DNA from: Candidatus Zhuqueibacterota bacterium
Lineage (GTDB): Bacteria; Zhuqueibacterota; Zhuqueibacteria; Residuimicrobiales; Oceaniaggregativiventaceae
Assembly (NCBI GenBank): GCA_014728085.1
Contig: WJMF01000034.1
Span: forward strand, 1 to 36,076
DNA length: 36,076 bases
Direction: 5' to 3'
A model generated the notes under the pieces. That model had not been told where the DNA came from and ran no database searches. It worked only from the letters and a program-made list of their open reading frames with translations. Position 1 is the stretch's first letter. Each line of letters starts with the position of its first letter. Below, piece by piece: positions 7,357 through 33,412 of the stretch. Both the position numbers and the translations under genes were made by a program.

Positions 7357-7385
7357 TTGACAAATTAAAAAATTATTTGTATAAT
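7357..7385 (+). promoter_or_regulatory. Consensus sigma-70 promoter of the trp leader
   Basis: TTGACA (7357-7362) and TATAAT (7380-7385) are both perfect consensus hexamers and are separated by the optimal 17 bases. The start would be near 7391-7393, so the leader-peptide ATG at 7409 lies 16-18 bases into the RNA. A very strong promoter followed by a conditional terminator is the expected design for attenuation. Confidence 0.9.
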
Positions 7386-7408
7386 TGGCATATAAACGGA
7401 GAATCAAA

Positions 7409-7507
7409 ATGCAATCACTGCGATACAAACAACCTGATCAAATGAGGGACAGCTGGTGGGGCTGGTGCAACGGTATAGTGTATCGTAGTGGGATTGGCAT
7501 GTTTTAA
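7409..7507 (+). CDS. Trp leader peptide (attenuator sensor)
   Basis: This 32-residue ORF reads MQSLRYKQPDQMRDSWWGWC followed by NGIVYRSGIGMF. Three Trp codons fall within four positions (codons 16, 17 and 19; 7454-7459 and 7463-7465). GGAG (7398-7401) lies 7 bases before the ATG, so the peptide should be well translated. It starts just after a consensus promoter, ends 24 bases before the attenuator stem, and precedes a tryptophan synthase beta gene. By the known trp mechanism, a shortage of charged tRNA-Trp would stall ribosomes at codons 16-19. Cys and Gly neighbours have no obvious role. It is too short for ordinary gene calling. Confidence 0.92.
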   Translation: MQSLRYKQPDQMRDSWWGWCNGIVYRSGIGMF

Positions 7508-7545
7508 AAGACCCTTATAGAGTTTAATTTCAGCCCGCTGCGGTA
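7412..7545 (+). promoter_or_regulatory. trp attenuator: pause and antiterminator pairings
   Basis: Two alternative helices can be drawn by eye. Segment 1 (7416-7425, CACTGCGATA) pairs over 10 bp, with one G-U, to segment 2 (7481-7490); CAAT (7412-7415) with ATTG (7493-7496) extends it past a two-base bulge. Segment 2 (7481-7492, TATCGTAGTGGG) instead pairs over 12 contiguous bp, three of them G-U, with 7534-7545, which contains most of the 5' arm of the terminator. A ribosome stalled at the Trp codons would leave segment 2 free to form this antiterminator. A ribosome reaching the stop codon (7505-7507) would cover part of segment 2 and allow termination. Confidence 0.85.
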
Positions 7546-7572
7546 ATCCTGCAGCGGGCTTTTTTATTTTTT
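7532..7572 (+). terminator. Intrinsic terminator (attenuator) before trpB2
   Basis: AGCCCGCTGC (7532-7541) and GCAGCGGGCT (7551-7560) form a perfect 10-bp GC-rich stem with a 9-base loop. A T-rich run, TTTTTATTTTTT, follows at 7561-7572. It lies between the leader peptide and the trpB2 ribosome site, so it must be conditional. Its 5' arm is shared with the antiterminator. Confidence 0.93.
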
Positions 7573-7606
7573 GGGTCGACACATCACACACAAACCAGGA
7601 GGACTT

Positions 7607-8977
7607 ATGGACGCAACAAAATTTATGTTGGACGAAAAGGACATGCCGAGGCAATGGTATAATTTGGCAGCGGATCTGCCGACACCGCCTTTGCCACCTT
7701 TGGGGCCGGACGGTAATCCCGTTTCCCCGGATATGCTCACTCCGATTTTTCCGATGGGATTGATCGAGCAGGAGGTCAGCCAGGAGCGATGGATCGATAT
7801 CCCGGAAAAGATACTTGAGATTTTGAGCTTGTGGCGTCCTGCACCCTTGTATCGTGCCCGGCGGCTGGAAAAATTGCTCAAAACGCCGGCCAGAATTTAT
7901 TACAAGCACGAAGGGAACAGTCCTCCGGGGAGTCACAAGCCCAACACGGCTGTGGCACAGGCTTATTACAATAAGGAGGCGGGTATCGAGCGCATCACCA
8001 CCGAGACCGGCGCCGGTCAGTGGGGCAGTGCGCTCTCCTTTGCCTGTTCTTTGCTGGATCTGGAGTGTAAGGTGTTTATGGTGCGGATCAGTTTTGATCA
8101 AAAGCCGTTCCGCCGTCTGATGATGCAGGCCTGGGGCGGTGTTTGTGTACCCAGTCCGAGTGAGGAAACTCAGGCCGGCCGTGCAATCCTGGCGGAAAAT
8201 CCGGATACGCCCGGCAGTTTGGGTATTGCCATCAGCGAAGCCATTGAAGCGGCGGTAACCGACAAGACGGGCAAGACGCGCTATTCGCTTGGCTCGGTGC
8301 TCAATCACGTCATGCTGCATCAAACCATAATTGGCCTGGAGGCGAAAAAGCAGCTCGAGCTCGCCGGTGAAAAGAAAGTGGATGTGGTGATCGGTTGTGC
8401 CGGCGGTGGCAGCAACTTTGCCGGGCTGGCGTTTCCGTTTGTCGCCGACAAGATCAACGGTGCGGAAATCGATATTTTGCCGGTGGAACCGACCTCGTGT
8501 CCGACCCTGACCAGGGCGCCGTTTCACTATGATTTCGGTGATACGGCTGAAACAACGCCATTGCTGCCCATGTATACACTGGGACACAAGTTCGTTCCGC
8601 CTCCGATTCACGCCGGCGGATTGCGCTATCACGGTATATCGCCTCTGGTCAGCCATGCGGTCAAGCACGGATTGCTGACACCAAAGGCTTATGATCAGCT
8701 CGATTGTTATGAAGCGGCGGTGTTGTGGTCCCGTACGGAGGGATTCATTCCCGCGCCGGAAACCAGTCATGCCATTGCTGCAGCTATTGAAGAGGCAAAC
8801 AAGGCCAAAGAGGAGGGCAAGGAAAAGGTCATCGTTTTTAACTGGAGCGGACACGGTTTGATGGATTTGACCGGTTATGATGCCTATTTCAGCGGCAAGC
8901 TGATTAATTATCCCTTGCCGGAAGAGGAGATCGAAAAATCAACCGCTGTACTGAAAAATTTACCCAAAGCAGACTAG
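7607..8977 (+). CDS. trpB: Tryptophan synthase beta chain, TrpB2 type
   Basis: This PLP enzyme makes L-tryptophan from indole and serine. It is the longer TrpB2 form, often encoded away from trpA, rather than classical TrpB1. The PLP lysine is Lys111 in GSHKPNTA and the phosphate-binding loop is [11 protein letters not shown]. The start was set at ATG 7607 because a perfect AGGAGG lies at 7597-7602, giving 456 residues beginning MDATKFML; an in-frame TTG upstream falls in the terminator tail. No trpA or other trp gene is near, so it may salvage indole or act with TrpA encoded elsewhere. The Trp-codon leader and attenuator upstream independently support a role in tryptophan supply. Confidence 0.95.
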
Positions 8978-26955: not shown

Positions 26956-27629
26956 TGAACAGGCTCCTGCTGCTGTGCATATTTTTTACAATGCCGGGCT
27001 GTCTGCTTGCGACTCAACCCGTTACCCTTTATCTGACGTCACAAGCACCGGTCGCTGCTTTCCAGGCAGATCTGAGCGTAAGCGGCGGGTCTGCGGGAAT
27101 CGATTCTGTTGTTCTCTCTCCGTCGCTGGCCGGATTCCGGCTCCTGCACCATGAAAACCGCCTTATTTGTTATGACCGCACCGGTAGAAACATTGCGGCA
27201 GGATATACAGCTCTTTTACATCTTTATCTCAATGAGGACTATAACGGGGCACCGGTTGTCCTGAAAAACCAGATTGTTGTCGATTCGCTTTTGCAACGGA
27301 CAGAGCATGGCGCGCTTTCCATCGGCGAGGCCACGTCTGTTCAAGCCGACAGAGAGGCAAAGCCGATGGATTTGCGGATTCATCCGCTTTATCCCAATCC
27401 CTTAAACGGACATACGGTTCTCCGTATCGACTTGCCGCAGCAATTGCCGGTAAAAGTTGTTCTTTATAATCTTTTGGGACAACGCCTGAAAACCATAGTG
27501 GATGAATCCCTGCCGGCGGGCAATCATACAATCCATGTCGATGTCACCACCCTCGCTTCAGGCGTCTATTTTGCTTTTGTTCAGGCCGGTACGATCACCG
27601 CGCGACAAAAGATCGTCTTGATCAGGTAA
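26952..27629 (+). CDS. Secreted cohesin-like protein with type IX-like sorting tail
   Basis: This 225-residue protein starts with a signal peptide (MNRLLLLCIFFTMPGCLLA; the GC might also be a lipobox). A beta domain (about 22-130) has the look of a cohesin: VAAFQADLSVSGG, LAGFRLL, LICYDRTGRNIAAGYTALLH, LYLNE. It finishes with a sorting tail: PLYPNPLNGHTVLRIDLP, YNLLGQRLKTIV, ASGVYFAFVQAG. The first ATG overlaps the carboxypeptidase stop by 4 bases, so translation is likely coupled. The 3' end overlaps convergent hydE by 72 bases. Assignment as cohesin is by pattern and needs a profile search. Confidence 0.72.
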   Translation: MMNRLLLLCIFFTMPGCLLATQPVTLYLTSQAPVAAFQADLSVSGGSAGIDSVVLSPSLAGFRLLHHENRLICYDRTGRNIAAGYTALLHLYLNEDYNGAPVVLKNQIVVDSLLQRTEHGALSIGEATSVQADREAKPMDLRIHPLYPNPLNGHTVLRIDLPQQLPVKVVLYNLLGQRLKTIVDESLPAGNHTIHVDVTTLASGVYFAFVQAGTITARQKIVLIR

Positions 27630-28724
27630 CTCAAGTTTTCGCTGGTAAAAGTGCGGCGAATCTCCCCACTGGTTATAGCCGATGGATTCATCGATTTTTT
27701 TTATCCTTTTTTCCAGACAGGAGCGGCAAATCCCTGAATTTTCGTCGAGGCAGGGTTTGTTTTCATAGAGCTGATAAGCGGCGCGGTATTTGGTATCTGT
27801 GATATTCGGCATGATGATATTTGCACCGGCCAGCAATCCTTTTTCGCGACCCAGCGGGTCCAGCGCCTGCAAGGCTGTTGTGGCGGCGATATTGACATTG
27901 CGAAGATATAGACGGGTAACCGCGATCATTTTCAGGGCTTTGTTGAGCTGCTCTCCTGCATCGATTTCGCCGGCTGTTTGTGCCATCGGCGTCTGATTGT
28001 GAACAATATAGGGCCCCATTCCGATCATATCGATATCCTGTTTTTCATAAAAAAGAATATCGTCGGCCAGGTCACCGGCGCTTTGGCCCGGCAATCCGAT
28101 CATAACACCGGTTCCCACCTGGTAACCGGCATCGCGTAAATGGTTTAAACAGGCTATTCTCTGCTCCATACCGGATTCTGCCGGATGGATATTTTTATAG
28201 AGATGCGAATTTGACGTCTCTATGCGCAACAGATAACGGTGCGCGCCGGCGTCGAACCAGCGCCGGTAGGTCTTCGGACTCTGTTCACCCAGAGACAAGG
28301 TAATTCCGAGCTCTCCGTGAGAGAGATCTTTTATTTTTCTGCATAGAGCGGTGATGCGGTCGACAAAGGGGCTATCGTTGCGTTCTCCGGATTGCAGAAC
28401 GATGGACCCATAGTGGTTCTCCCAGGCCCATGTGGCTGCAGTGAGAATTTCTTCGTCGCTCATGTTAAACCGTTTGCTGTGGAAGTTGCTTTTGCGTATG
28501 CCGCAATAGTAACAATCCCGGCTGCAAATATTGCTGAATTCGATGATGCCGCGGAAATAGACGCGTTTGCCGACCTCGGCGCTTTTGACGTCATAGGCTT
28601 TGCGGCAGAGTTTTTCCATCTGCCCGGGGAGGTTGCTTTGTAAAAGTTCGACAAGGTCGGATCGATCCAATTTCCCCCGGTTGTCTATTTTTGAAAAAAT
28701 TTTATCCATATCGGGGTTGCTCAC
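27558..28724 (-). CDS. hydE: [FeFe]-hydrogenase maturase HydE (radical SAM)
   Basis: This radical SAM enzyme is needed to build the [2Fe] subcluster of the [FeFe]-hydrogenase active site. The CX3CX2C motif is Cys67, Cys71 and Cys74 (ICSRDCYYCG), which binds the catalytic [4Fe-4S] cluster. A second CX7CX2C motif near the C-terminus (PCLDENSGICRSC) matches the accessory cluster found in many HydE proteins. The length of 388 is a little above usual. It begins with GTG at 28724, with AGGAG upstream, 3 bases after the hydF stop. The last gene of the operon, its end overlaps the opposite-strand cohesin-like gene. Confidence 0.95.
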   Translation of the reverse strand: MSNPDMDKIFSKIDNRGKLDRSDLVELLQSNLPGQMEKLCRKAYDVKSAEVGKRVYFRGIIEFSNICSRDCYYCGIRKSNFHSKRFNMSDEEILTAATWAWENHYGSIVLQSGERNDSPFVDRITALCRKIKDLSHGELGITLSLGEQSPKTYRRWFDAGAHRYLLRIETSNSHLYKNIHPAESGMEQRIACLNHLRDAGYQVGTGVMIGLPGQSAGDLADDILFYEKQDIDMIGMGPYIVHNQTPMAQTAGEIDAGEQLNKALKMIAVTRLYLRNVNIAATTALQALDPLGREKGLLAGANIIMPNITDTKYRAAYQLYENKPCLDENSGICRSCLEKRIKKIDESIGYNQWGDSPHFYQRKLELPDQDDLLSRGDRTGLNKSKIDA

Positions 28725-28727
28725 GGT

Positions 28728-29993
28728 TCAGCTCTCCTGTTGAATGGCATTAAGCGAATTGACGGTAAGCAGATTTTTTTTATAAATCTCGCTGGCAGCG
28801 GCAAAGGGTTCGAGGGCGCGTTCAAAAATGCCGAGCGAATAGGCGATCGTAAGGCCGTAATTGGTCATGGGAACGCCCTGCCTGCGGCATTGCATCAGGC
28901 GCGACAGCACCGCTCTGCGGTTGAACATGCAGGCACCACAGTGAATGACCAGTTTGTATTCATTGAGATTTTCGGGAAAATCGCGTCCCTGCATAATGTT
29001 GATATCGAGTTTTCCGCCGACGTACTGGGTCAACCAGCGGGGTATTTTTACACGACCGATATCCTCGGCAATGGGGTGATGCGAACAAGCTTCGGCGATT
29101 AATATCTTGTCGCCGCTTTTTAAGGAATCGATGGCCATAGCACCCCGGACCATTTCATTCAGATCACCCTGATAACGGGCAAAGAGAATGGAAAACGATG
29201 TGAGCGGAATTTCCCGGGGCGTATCAGCATCGGCTTTGAGAAAGGCCTGCGAATCGGTGACCACCAGTGCGGGAGGGGGACTGGTACGGTTTAAAACCGA
29301 ACGTAACTCTCGCTCCTTGGTAACGGTGCAACAGGCATCATGATCGAGAATATCCCGAATGGCCCGTACCTGAGGTAAAATCAGCCGCCCTTTGGGGGCT
29401 TCTTTATCTATTGGTACGACAAGCACGACCATGTCTCCGGGTTGAATGAGATCGCCGATCAGCGGCGGACTGTTGATAAAATCCTCCGGCGCGTTGTCGA
29501 GCAAGGCCTGGCGCAGATCGGTAATGCCTTCACCCCGGTCGGCGACAGTTTTTACGACGGTAATTTTTTTCTCTTCAATCGCTTTCAGAAGAGCCGGATT
29601 CGGATCATCAAGGTCGGTCTTGTTCATCACAACAACAACCGGAATCTCGCGTTCTTTGAGCGACCGGAGTATCTGTTCTTCAAATTCACCCCATCGATGC
29701 GGTTCGGTGACGATAACGCCGATATCTGTGCGATCAAACGCCTGTCTGGTCTTTTTTACCCGCATTTCGCCGAGGGCGCCGATATCATCTATACCGGCCG
29801 TGTCGATGAAAAGCACCGGACCGAGCGGTAACAGCTCCATCGGTTTTTCCACCGCGTCTGTTGTGGTGCCGGCAAAATCAGACACAATCGAGACCTGTTG
29901 CCGGGTCATTGCATTGAGCAGACTTGATTTTCCGACATTGCGGCGTCCGAAAAAACCGATATGACAGCGCATGCTTTTGGGGGTTCCCTTCAC
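28728..29993 (-). CDS. hydF: [FeFe]-hydrogenase maturation GTPase HydF
   Basis: This scaffold GTPase receives the [2Fe] precursor and delivers it to apo-hydrogenase. The N-terminal GTPase domain has P-loop GRRNVGKSS, DTAGIDD (G3) and NKTD (G4). The C-terminal cluster-binding signature CXHX46CXXC is complete: CSH in EACSHHP, then HCGAC 46 residues later. The start was set at GTG 29993 because GAGGAG precedes it and it overlaps the upstream stop as GTGA; this gives 421 residues starting VKGTPKSMRCHIGFF. An in-frame start at 30032 would lie within the aspartase-family gene. Confidence 0.95.
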   Translation of the reverse strand: MKGTPKSMRCHIGFFGRRNVGKSSLLNAMTRQQVSIVSDFAGTTTDAVEKPMELLPLGPVLFIDTAGIDDIGALGEMRVKKTRQAFDRTDIGVIVTEPHRWGEFEEQILRSLKEREIPVVVVMNKTDLDDPNPALLKAIEEKKITVVKTVADRGEGITDLRQALLDNAPEDFINSPPLIGDLIQPGDMVVLVVPIDKEAPKGRLILPQVRAIRDILDHDACCTVTKERELRSVLNRTSPPPALVVTDSQAFLKADADTPREIPLTSFSILFARYQGDLNEMVRGAMAIDSLKSGDKILIAEACSHHPIAEDIGRVKIPRWLTQYVGGKLDINIMQGRDFPENLNEYKLVIHCGACMFNRRAVLSRLMQCRRQGVPMTNYGLTIAYSLGIFERALEPFAAASEIYKKNLLTVNSLNAIQQES

Positions 29994-31408
29994 GCTTTTC
30001 TCCTCTGTATAGTGGCCGAGCCCAGGCGGCATATCGCTTCCGGGGTCAGCAGGTCATTGAATTCTTTTTCTGTTATATAATTGAGTTCAGTAGCGATCTC
30101 TTTGATCGATTTACCGCTTTTTTGGGCCTTGTCGACGAGTTCGCTCGTCTTTGTATATCCGAGCACGCCGATCAGGGCTGTGGCAACGGCAGTAGCGTTT
30201 TCCGCCTGTTGGCGACAGCGCTCCTCATTGGCGCGCATTCCTTCCACGCAATCCTGTCTCAGCCGGATGCAGCTGCGGTTGAGATAGTCGATATTACCCA
30301 GAATACAATCCGCTACCAGTGGTAAAAACGAATTCAGCTCAAGACTGCCGTTAGCGACCGCCATGGAAATAACCTGGTCACGGCCGATGACCATCATAGC
30401 CGCCTGAGCGATTGCTTCCGGAATCACCGGATTGACCTTGCCCGGCATGATGGAAGATCCTGCCTGTTTTGCCGGCAATTGAATTTCCGCCAGACCGGCA
30501 TCCGGTCCGGACGATAGCAGGCGCAGATCACCGCTGATTTTCCACAAGGTCGTTGCCAGTGCCTTGAGAATTCCCGAAACCTCGACAAAAACATCATTGT
30601 TCTGGGTGGCGTCTGTCAAATTTTCCGCCCGTGCAAAGCCGATACCGGTGTTCTCGCGCAGCTTGTTGACCGCTCTGAATATATAGGTTCTTGAGGCCCC
30701 CAGACCGCTGCCGATAGCGGTGCCGCCGAGATTGACGACGCGCAGGCGTTCAAAACACTTGTAAATACGCCAGCGGTCGCGAGAAAGGACTTCGGCATAG
30801 GCGCTCATTTCACGTCCGAGTGTGGTAAGTACCGCGTCCTGCATTTGAGTCCTGCCGATTTTGATAATATGCGCAAATGCTTTTTCCTTGTCCTGAAAAG
30901 CCTCCTGCAGGGAGACGACACTCTTCTCGAGATCCTGAATTTTCCAAATAACCGCCAGGCGCAAGGCTGTCGGAAACGTATCGTTTGTGGATTGTTGAAA
31001 ATTAATATCATCCAGAGGGGAGACGGCGTCATATTCTCCCGGCTCCTTTCCCAGGAGTTGTAAAGCACGGTTGGCAATCACTTCGTTGACATTCATGTTC
31101 AGCGATGTTCCGGCACCGCCCTGAAGGCGATCGACAACGACGTGGTGGTTCAATTTACCTTCGGCCATCTCTTTACAGGCAGTAACAATAACGTTTGCCT
31201 TTTCCTGCCGCCAAACCCCGAGCTCCTGATTGGTCAGGGCACAGGCGAGTTTAACGCTGCCAAAGGCGCGAACAAGAGTCCTGTCCACCGGTTGCCCGGC
31301 AAGATCAAAATTATTCAGCGCCCGCCTGGTATGGATGCCATACAGACAAGAGAGCGGTAGTTTTACATTACCGAGATTGTCTGTTTCGATGCGATAAGTA
31401 TCATTCAC
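29990..31408 (-). CDS. Aspartase/fumarase-family lyase in the hyd operon
   Basis: This 472-residue member of the aspartase/fumarase superfamily carries the signature GSSIMPGKVNPV; GGTAIGSGLGA and NDTFPTA are also conserved. It starts with GTG at 31408, overlapping the previous stop by 8 bases. Aspartate ammonia-lyase genes occur in hydEFG operons of several anaerobes, where aspartate deamination is thought to supply ammonia for the dithiomethylamine bridge of the H-cluster. That makes AspA the likeliest identity. Fumarase activity cannot be excluded from sequence. Confidence 0.88.
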   Translation of the reverse strand: MNDTYRIETDNLGNVKLPLSCLYGIHTRRALNNFDLAGQPVDRTLVRAFGSVKLACALTNQELGVWRQEKANVIVTACKEMAEGKLNHHVVVDRLQGGAGTSLNMNVNEVIANRALQLLGKEPGEYDAVSPLDDINFQQSTNDTFPTALRLAVIWKIQDLEKSVVSLQEAFQDKEKAFAHIIKIGRTQMQDAVLTTLGREMSAYAEVLSRDRWRIYKCFERLRVVNLGGTAIGSGLGASRTYIFRAVNKLRENTGIGFARAENLTDATQNNDVFVEVSGILKALATTLWKISGDLRLLSSGPDAGLAEIQLPAKQAGSSIMPGKVNPVIPEAIAQAAMMVIGRDQVISMAVANGSLELNSFLPLVADCILGNIDYLNRSCIRLRQDCVEGMRANEERCRQQAENATAVATALIGVLGYTKTSELVDKAQKSGKSIKEIATELNYITEKEFNDLLTPEAICRLGSATIQRRKA

Positions 31409-31727
31409 CTCTGTTTTCCTCCCTGATCAGATATTTACAGCACTTGCGCAGGGCCCGGATTGTTTCATCGGGAAGGGAATGTTTGCCATCCTGAGATTGC
31501 AGCAGCAACCCCAAAACAGGCGAGAGAATGATTCTTTCCTCCGCATAGAGCAAATCAGTATCACCGCTTATATGCGACCAGCGATTGCCATGGATTTCGC
31601 AAAAGGCGTTTTTCAGCTTGTGGTGTTTGGAAATCCAGCTGCTCAGCACTTGCAGGCGGGAGCTGTCGTTATCCTCCTCTTGCAGTAATTGCTCGAGTTG
31701 TTTAGATATAGATGTCTCTTTCTCCAT
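31401..31727 (-). CDS. Unknown small protein in the hyd operon
   Basis: This protein is about 108 residues from ATG 31727 (an alternative ATG at 31754 adds 9 residues inside hydG). It has no signal peptide, membrane segment or motif I know. It is helical and acidic in the middle, with a C-terminal RALRKCCKYLIREENRGE containing a Cys pair; a third Cys lies in NAFCEIHGNRW. It overlaps hydG by 26 bases and the lyase by 8, so it is an integral part of the operon. Its function could relate to maturation, but nothing in sequence proves this. Confidence 0.75.
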   Translation of the reverse strand: MEKETSISKQLEQLLQEEDNDSSRLQVLSSWISKHHKLKNAFCEIHGNRWSHISGDTDLLYAEERIILSPVLGLLLQSQDGKHSLPDETIRALRKCCKYLIREENRGE

Positions 31728-33270
31728 TGGCCACTTTCCTGTAATAGGATTCAAAGGTTTGCAAAAGCTTGCCTTTTTGAAAAAACGGCATTGATTTGAT
31801 TTCAGCCATCTCTTTTTCGATCAATTTTTCTCCGATTTTTCGGGTTTCTTCCAAGGCATAGTCGTCCAGATATTCTCTAAACGTCAAAACGGCGTTTAGT
31901 TTGCAGAATTTTCCTTCGACGCAATTTTTCAGCAATCCCATGATTTTATCGCCGGTTCGGCCGCAGCGATAACCCGCTGTACAGAAAGAGGTGATCATGC
32001 CCATCTCTGCCAGTTCACGTATAACCGCATCGAGACTCCGCGTATCGCCGAGACGAAATTGCTGTTTTGTCTCATCCTGGTCCTTGTCTTTGTTTTGTAT
32101 TTTTTTCAGCTCCTTGAGCGCTTCGGTATAACCGCCGATACCGATCTTGGTCGACGCATCGGTTTGGGTACATCCGACTTTAATAACCTCTTTTTTCAGC
32201 TCCGGATTTTCTCTGGCGGTGATGATCAGCCCGGTGTAGGGGACCGAAAGCCGGATAATCGTTACCAGTTTTTTAAAGGTATCGTCATCGACCCGGTAAG
32301 GAGAGTGGGTGCTGAGAGTAGAGCCGCCTGCCGGTGTCAGGCGGGGAAAGGAGATGGTGTGCGGTCCAATGTCGAATTGTTTTTCCAGGTCAATGGCATG
32401 GTATAACAACCCCATGACTTCAAAGCGCCAGTCTGCGAGTCCGAAAAGGGCGCCAATGGCGAGGTCGTCGATGCCCGCATCCATGGCGCGGTGCAGGGCA
32501 TAGAGGCGCCAGCGGTAATTCGCTTTGGGACCGGATGGATGCACCTGGTAATAGGTGGGTTTATGATAGGTTTCCTGAAAGACCTGATAGGTACCGATAC
32601 CCACTTGCCAGAGTTTTTTAAGATCGGCAATGGACATGGGAGCGGCATTGACATTGACCCGGCGAATGGCGCTATATCCGTTCCTGGCTTTGCCTTTAAC
32701 GCCGTACATGGTCTTGATGCTGTCGACCATGTAATCTACATCGGTTGTCGGGTGCTCTCCGTAAACGGCAATCATGCGTTTATGGCCCTTCGAAATCACC
32801 GCTTTGGTTTCCGCCTCGATTTCCTGCATCGACAAGACCCTGCGTTTTTCGCTTTTGTTTTCATGGCGAAAGCCACAATATGCACAGTTGTTAATACAGA
32901 GATTGCCGCAATAGAGCGGGGCGAAAAAGACGATGCGGTTATCGTATACTCTTTGTTTAACCTTCAGGCCGGTTTCGTACATTTCCTGCCAGAGGTCTGC
33001 ATCGGTTACGTGTATCAATGCCGCTGTTTCATCAGCATCGAGGCGTTCGATATCGAGTGACTTTTGCATGATATCACGGATGCGCTGTTTGTCCGGCTGT
33101 TGATTTTGTTCCAGGTGATTCAGGATTCTTTTTTCATCGATAAAATCTTTTCCATCGACAAGATATTTATCAATTTCGTCCTGTTTAATCACCTCTTTGC
33201 CCCATTGCCCCGGTGTCGGGAGGGGCGATTGTGCTTCGATGCCGTGATTGTCGATGAGGGTGGATTCCAT
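31702..33270 (-). CDS. hydG: [FeFe]-hydrogenase maturase HydG (radical SAM), altered C-terminal Cys motif
   Basis: This tyrosine lyase makes the CO and CN ligands and the Fe(CO)2(CN) synthon of the H-cluster. It is 522 residues from ATG 33270, chosen for the GGAG 6 bases upstream (another ATG lies 12 bases before). The radical SAM motif is CINNCAYC, and the His of GPHTISFPRLTPAGG is present. The C-terminal auxiliary-cluster motif is normally CTACYRxGRTG followed by Cys after 22 residues. Here it reads CTAGYRCGRTG with the final Cys in place (EGKFCKLN). The second Cys is Gly, and a new Cys stands three residues later. There is also a charged insert (KDKDQDETKQQ). Confidence 0.95.
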   Translation of the reverse strand: MESTLIDNHGIEAQSPLPTPGQWGKEVIKQDEIDKYLVDGKDFIDEKRILNHLEQNQQPDKQRIRDIMQKSLDIERLDADETAALIHVTDADLWQEMYETGLKVKQRVYDNRIVFFAPLYCGNLCINNCAYCGFRHENKSEKRRVLSMQEIEAETKAVISKGHKRMIAVYGEHPTTDVDYMVDSIKTMYGVKGKARNGYSAIRRVNVNAAPMSIADLKKLWQVGIGTYQVFQETYHKPTYYQVHPSGPKANYRWRLYALHRAMDAGIDDLAIGALFGLADWRFEVMGLLYHAIDLEKQFDIGPHTISFPRLTPAGGSTLSTHSPYRVDDDTFKKLVTIIRLSVPYTGLIITARENPELKKEVIKVGCTQTDASTKIGIGGYTEALKELKKIQNKDKDQDETKQQFRLGDTRSLDAVIRELAEMGMITSFCTAGYRCGRTGDKIMGLLKNCVEGKFCKLNAVLTFREYLDDYALEETRKIGEKLIEKEMAEIKSMPFFQKGKLLQTFESYYRKVANGERDIYI

Positions 33271-33412
33271 ATTTTTCTCCATAGATTTTAGGAATTTTTA
33301 TTATATTTTACGACAACCTTCAACTGATTGTTTTTCAGCCGCTGAACCATTGCCAATCGGACAACAGCCGGATGAAAACGATCGATTGAAAGATTTTGGA
33401 ATTGGGAAAAGG

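Follow-up and report, generated by a model that had tools for sequence, protein, structure and literature searches.

A predicted ribosome-mediated tryptophan attenuator upstream of stand-alone trpB2 in a bacterium related to candidate division KSB1

Classical trp attenuators, represented by Escherichia coli trpL, the Rfam family RF00513 and the leaders of Corynebacterium and Streptomyces (PMC1262725), have in common a leader peptide with Trp codons, three mutually exclusive helices, an intrinsic terminator and a Trp-pathway gene downstream. In a 2010 survey (PMC2965389), leader-peptide trp attenuation was known only from Proteobacteria and Actinobacteria, with a his example added from Bacilli. 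However, such attenuation has already been suggested for Flavobacterium and Bacteroidetes (PMC9723704; Rfam Bacteroid-trp), so the mechanism is not unprecedented in the broad FCB group. The Bacteroid-trp RNA RF01692 (PMC2864571) and the Flavobacterium psychrophilum candidates (PMC9723704) are, like the element described here, suggested FCB-group cis-regulatory RNAs of amino-acid biosynthesis genes. In Corynebacterium diphtheriae, a Trp attenuator has been predicted before trpB2A (PMC1262725), that is, before a gene named trpB2 as in our case, but there trpB2 heads an operon with trpA. The trpB motif RF04312 (PMC11109978) also consists of a hairpin followed by an intrinsic terminator and occasionally precedes trpB; it differs in being found in Firmicutes and Fusobacteria, mostly before an ABC transporter, and in having no described Trp leader ORF.

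The initial annotation of the window, by which we mean the whole analysed stretch of 36,076 nt, had proposed classical trp logic, known mainly from proteobacteria and actinobacteria, in control of a lone TrpB2 in an apparent FCB-group bacterium. The affiliation fits, the nearest named relatives being candidate division KSB1 MAGs; the phylum distribution leaves out the suggestion made for Bacteroidetes. Conservation and coevolution support the classical logic, although trpB2 is not the only unit with a putative Trp attenuator: the host trp operon is preceded by a leader of its own. Whereas classical trp attenuators control the trp operon and carry the Trp codons within segment 1, the element analysed here precedes a stand-alone trpB2 and places its Trp codons downstream of segment 1. 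The mechanism is classical, while the target, the lineage and the geometry are new. We found no paper describing Trp attenuation for a stand-alone TrpB2 gene or for KSB1, in a search of mostly non-subscription literature that is weak evidence of novelty.

The perfect-consensus promoter, the Shine-Dalgarno-led ORF of 32 codons with its three Trp codons and the perfect 10-bp intrinsic terminator of the initial annotation were all recovered (Table 1). Taken on their own, promoter and terminator counts in the scans are about at background, so significance rests on their combination and conservation. The region combines the testable sequence features of a classical trp attenuator: an ORF with Shine-Dalgarno sequence, start codon and clustered Trp codons; a terminator and an antiterminator that are mutually exclusive, share segment 3 and are backed by covariation; a protector or pause helix 1:2 competing with 2:3; and an intrinsic terminator with U-tract ahead of a Trp-synthesis gene. 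Elsewhere in the window, minus-strand ORFs at 27558-33282 resemble, by eye, genes for the [FeFe]-hydrogenase maturases HydE, HydF and HydG; between them is an ORF that, again by eye, looks like an aspartate ammonia-lyase gene.

Table 1. Coordinates of the features of the trpB2 leader region and of related loci (window positions unless a locus is named).
Feature	Position	Strand	Basis or remark
sigma-70-type promoter	7357..7385	+	TTGACA 7357-7362, 17-nt spacer, TATAAT 7380-7385; 12/12 consensus
leader Shine-Dalgarno GGAG	7398..7401	+	sequence
trpB2 leader ORF, 32 codons, MQSLRYKQPDQMRDSWWGWCNGIVYRSGIGMF	ATG 7409 to TAA 7505-7507	+	translation; Trp-rich leader at same position in order relatives
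Trp codons 16, 17, 19 (TGG TGG GGC TGG), predicted stall site	7454..7465	+	sequence
segment 1, 5' arm of pause/protector helix 1:2	7415..7427	+	MFE fold; swap test
segment 2, 3' arm of 1:2 and 5' arm of antiterminator 2:3	7479..7492	+	fold, swap test, compensatory changes
segment 3, antiterminator 3' arm 7534-7545 and terminator 5' arm 7532-7541	7532..7545	+	
segment 4, terminator 3' arm 7551-7560, then U-tract 7561-7570	7551..7570	+	terminator scan; 3:4 covariation
terminator AGCCCGCTGC/GCAGCGGGCT	7532-7541/7551-7560	+	perfect 10 bp, then TTTTTATTTT
trpB2 Shine-Dalgarno AGGAGG	7597..7602	+	sequence
trpB2, 456-aa TrpB-like PLP enzyme, predicted regulated gene	7607..8977	+	profile scores
host trpEGDCFBA leader MILFYKNMIQNWWWPAAFDAM	L114 about 7390-7180 (G000:C101)	-	own promoter, WWW run, terminator-like hairpins
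SbnI/SerK-like genes	L107 2907-3794, L108 2899-3726, L105 3247-4101	-	also L101, L102, L104, L106, L110-L112

TrpB2 relatives were collected by protein search, and their upstream regions were then read. A leader with a Trp run precedes trpB2 in 18/18 genomes of the same order with the trpB2 5' flank in the sequence examined (G000-G004, G006-G014, G016, G017, G020, G021). The runs vary (e.g., NWWGWWF, HWWGWWWH, NWGWWWF, LWWSWWWR, NWWWWR), with in-frame TGG runs of varying spacing in 21 leaders, and in most cases (H/R)SG comes next. Apart from the Trp run, the only conserved part of the peptide is this (H/R)SG, which is explained by segment 2: its codons (AGTGGG) are segment 2, in the window as in the relatives. 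Promoters resembling TTGACA-17-TATAWT lie 17-42 nt ahead of most leader AUGs in the relatives, and the order leaders have the same terminator downstream (GCCCGCT...AGCGGGC-U). Similar leaders, with WRWRWW or WRWWW runs and matched segment pairs of their own, precede trpB2 in nine Bacteroidota MAGs; they are absent from the upstream regions read for TrpB2 relatives in Planctomycetes, Omnitrophota, Spirochaetes and Desulfobacteria. The fetched loci (1.5 Mb, read on both strands) contain 58 Shine-Dalgarno-led short ORFs with three or more Trp within five codons, almost all of them immediately upstream of trpB2, of an SbnI-like-trpB2 pair or of trpE; as the loci were picked around those genes, the remaining flanks serve as the control. 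The initial annotation had looked to orthologues lacking the Trp-rich ORF and hairpins as evidence against an attenuator. Within the lineage, all 18 keep the leader, pairings coevolve, and the alignment of orthologous upstream regions shows conserved Trp codons and covarying helices.

Coevolution of the helices was assessed by a swap test, in which duplex energies of segments 1:2 and 2:3 were compared between cognate and swapped partners for 17 order leaders, segment 1 being taken as the region 5' of the Trp run. Cognate 1:2 pairs reach -24.6 kcal/mol against -17.2 kcal/mol for swapped ones (gain 7.4; p 5e-5), and cognate 2:3 pairs -21.1 against -17.9 kcal/mol (gain 3.2; p 5e-5). For both helices, 0/20,000 permutations were as good as the cognate pairing, in a test that kinship among the leaders makes conservative. 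The nine Bacteroidota leaders point in the same direction, with p values of 0.008 and 0.004. In alignment A1, two-sided changes occur in 9 cells of 2:3, a count lowered by the misregistration of one or two rows (L103, L098) at segment 2, and in 14 cells of 3:4, where 91.8% of cells are paired; 0/500 shuffles were as high in either case.

Folding of the RNA 7393-7606 gave a minimum free energy (MFE) of -64.5 kcal/mol, compared to -51.6 +/- 4.4 for shuffles (z -2.9). Helices 1:2 and 3:4 are both in the MFE structure, and 2:3 is available as an alternative. The competing helix that the initial annotation had placed at 7481-7492/7534-7545 is indeed present with 12 bp, 4 of them G-U, and the pause helix it had placed at 7416-7425/7481-7490 gains further pairs in the MFE structure and reaches 13 bp (7415-7427/7479-7491). 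In the same fold, AUGC 7409-7412, which includes the leader AUG, pairs with GCAU 7497-7500. Decision-point folding was then modelled on a transcript with segment 3 made and segment 4 still absent. The probability of 2:3 in the window is 0.08 for the unoccupied RNA. It is 1.00 when a ribosome is halted on any one of the Trp codons and pairing across it is disallowed, and 0.00 when the ribosome has reached the stop codon. When only the footprint is masked, it is mostly at most 0.2 at codons 16 and 17, and between 0.01 and 0.96 at codon 19 depending on the assumed footprint and transcript end. These low values arise because the ribosome sits within the loop of 1:2; a second ribosome at the leader AUG, covering segment 1, brings the probability back to 1.00. 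The switch would therefore need either that 1 and 2 do not pair across the ribosome or that a second ribosome occupies segment 1. In the same model, the unoccupied RNA already favours 2:3 in several relatives (L084, L088, L089, L090, L092, L145); equilibrium folding therefore gives no more than an approximate picture.

The initial annotation was right about the unusual position of the Trp codons in the loop between segments 1 and 2, and this holds throughout the family: the stretch coevolving with segment 2 precedes the Trp codons, unlike in E. coli trpL, leuL and hisL. For the E. coli leaders, masking alone and disallowed cross-pairing give nearly the same probability of 2:3 at one or more regulatory codons (trpL 0.80/0.83, thrL 0.80/0.80, leuL 0.58/0.58, hisL 0.63/0.63), with only 0.36 at trpL codon 10 under the mask alone. 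The leader geometry is a real and conserved difference from the E. coli attenuators; the mechanistic weight of the shift is a prediction of the folding model.

A covariance model of the terminator half and the Trp run was searched against 63 whole genomes of the class. It detects the leader in each of the 18 order genomes, although training rows match by construction, and its strongest matches lie before trpB2, an SbnI-like-trpB2 operon or trpE. Matches independent of the training rows include those in G002, G003, G023, G028, G034, G037, G049 and G052, and independent matches before trpE were obtained in G026, G036, G039 and G045. The host genome has one weak second match (C9, E 2.7e-4); a TGG-run pattern search of the same genome was uninformative, with 324 matches against 286 in the reversed control. 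At Rfam gathering cut-offs, no family was found in the window or in 26 related loci, and permissive scans returned only weak matches. In the window region, RF00513 (Trp_leader) scored 17.5 bits, below its cut-off of 41, and RF04312 scored 28.3 bits, below its cut-off of 59. RF01692 differs from the present element, with no match in the window region at E 10 nor in the Bacteroidota trpB2 loci at E 5.

Three other readings of the region have to be set against attenuation by a translating ribosome. Terminator/antiterminator logic is compatible with any ligand, and the same hairpins could serve a metabolite riboswitch or a TRAP-like RNA-binding protein, with the TGG run acting as an RNA motif, for example a G-rich one, and not as codons; the similar two-hairpin layout of the trpB motif, a riboswitch candidate in PMC11109978, and its weak match here lend this some weight. 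However, that motif comes from Firmicutes and Fusobacteria and scores far under its cut-off, and what the leaders share is no fixed RNA sequence or aptamer but Trp codons in frame with an upstream start codon, which in most leaders has a Shine-Dalgarno sequence; spacing and intervening codons vary (WWGW, WGWWW, WSWWWW, WRWRWW). A ligand-sensing RNA is very improbable. It is very improbable, too, that the leader acts mainly by translational coupling to trpB2 or as a trans-acting peptide in the manner of Sinorhizobium peTrpL: a trans-acting Trp leader peptide is reported in PMC7298713, but here roughly 100 nt, including an intrinsic terminator, separate the leader stop from trpB2, and the lack of peptide conservation described above, with (H/R)SG accounted for by segment 2, speaks against a function in trans. 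Finally, near-background promoter and terminator counts in a single sequence would allow a constitutive intergenic terminator next to a chance Trp-rich ORF, without any regulation. This reading is refuted by leader conservation in every order genome with an examined trpB2 5' flank, together with the coevolving pairings, the compensatory changes and the genome-wide specificity of the covariance model, and its probability is negligible.

The sequence evidence thus makes it very probable that the element is a ribosome-mediated transcription attenuator that would switch trpB2 on when charged tRNA-Trp is scarce. From the arrangement of its parts we infer the following course of stalling, read-through and Trp response. 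Transcription would start just past 7385, and helix 1:2 would fold first, probably pausing RNA polymerase until a ribosome loads at the leader AUG. With ample Trp-tRNA, the ribosome would reach UAA 7505, cover segment 2 and release, whereupon 3:4 would form and RNA polymerase would terminate at the U-tract. With scarce Trp-tRNA, it would stall at UGG 16, 17 or 19 and 1:2 would be blocked, so that 2:3 could form before segment 4 exists, pre-empting the terminator and allowing transcription of trpB2. A leader left untranslated would fold into 1:2 and 3:4 and lead to termination. The TrpB2 produced would then synthesise Trp; its likeliest substrates are indole, either scavenged or spilled, and O-phosphoserine or serine.

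The TrpB2 of the window scores 717 bits with NF009057 (cut-off 366) and 641 bits with TIGR01415 (cut-off 519), is far below the cut-off for TIGR00263 trpB, and has 6hul, 4qys and 6hte as its closest solved chains. Its gene is stand-alone and of TIGR01415 type, with no trpA adjoining. The host (genome of 5.19 Mb, 97.9% complete) additionally encodes a full trpEGDCFBA operon (L114) behind an independent WWW leader. This would make trpB2 a second, separately attenuated Trp unit and indicates that the lineage makes use of Trp attenuation; many genomes of the class have trpE leaders with runs of WWW or WWWW. By contrast, eight genomes of the order that are estimated to be 90% complete or better (G002, G003, G004, G008, G009, G011, G013, G016; loci L144, L088, L094, L145, L095, L097, L096, L146) have no TrpE, TrpA or TrpC match, yet carry trpB2 behind a Trp leader. 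G018 likewise lacks these matches; it is not counted among the eight because its trpB2 start is off the contig. With no TrpE, TrpA or TrpC, TrpB2 in the eight genomes could only use supplied indole for Trp. This makes these genomes candidate indole-dependent Trp prototrophs and suggests that trpB2 encodes a Trp-starvation-induced, indole-salvaging Trp synthase.

In 13 sister-family genomes, an SbnI/SerK-like gene lies directly 5' of trpB2. The SbnI match is weak but consistent, with E values from 1e-16 to 1e-20 that do not reach the equivalog cut-off, and SerK is also matched; in several genomes (L105-L108, L110) a Trp leader stands ahead of the SbnI-like-trpB2 pair. No SbnI-like gene was found in the order of the window, host genome included. 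SbnI is an O-phospho-L-serine synthase and SerK an O-phosphoserine-forming ParB-like kinase (PMC5120207, for SerK), and TrpB2 enzymes have been reported as O-phosphoserine-dependent Trp synthases (Busch 2014, cited in PMC11917138). The sister-family operon thus matches the in vitro use of O-phosphoserine by TrpB2 enzymes, a use that the window TrpB2 may share.

On the TrpB2 tree, the enzymes of the order group in one clade (SH-aLRT 96), separate from both the SbnI-linked sister-family TrpB2 and the Bacteroidota TrpB2. The idea that leader presence tracks one TrpB2 clade was rejected, as at least six label changes are forced on the tree, although a few genomes labelled 'no leader' do have one that had been overlooked (G043, G046). 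The order TrpB2 and those of other class families are distant, yet both stand behind Trp leaders, which we take as a sign that the gene may have been replaced under a kept or regained regulator. G002 has two TrpB2 genes of different clades, at C33 (L144) and C63 (L100), with a Trp leader only at C33.

We tentatively extend the proposed attenuator to a new and widespread KSB1-class family, an extension for which the odds seem somewhat short of even. In such a family, indole-salvaging TrpB2, or in the sister families an O-phosphoserine synthase-TrpB2 operon, would be under Trp-starvation control independent of the de novo pathway, and the stalled ribosome, placed in the 1-2 loop, would insulate the segments or let a following ribosome cover segment 1 and not cover it itself.

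The in vivo role of stand-alone TrpB2 has long been uncertain, and the lone trpB2_o of Pyrococcus horikoshii, which lacks the trp pathway, was credited with another, not yet identified function (PMC1854888). A dedicated Trp attenuator bears on this question: its retention in genomes without other Trp genes would indicate that cells rely on TrpB2 to supply Trp under shortage, with indole from the environment as the presumed source. The finding would also extend leader-peptide trp attenuation to a deep FCB lineage, and provides a natural set of leaders with shifted geometry that may be useful for understanding how a stalled ribosome blocks helix 1:2.
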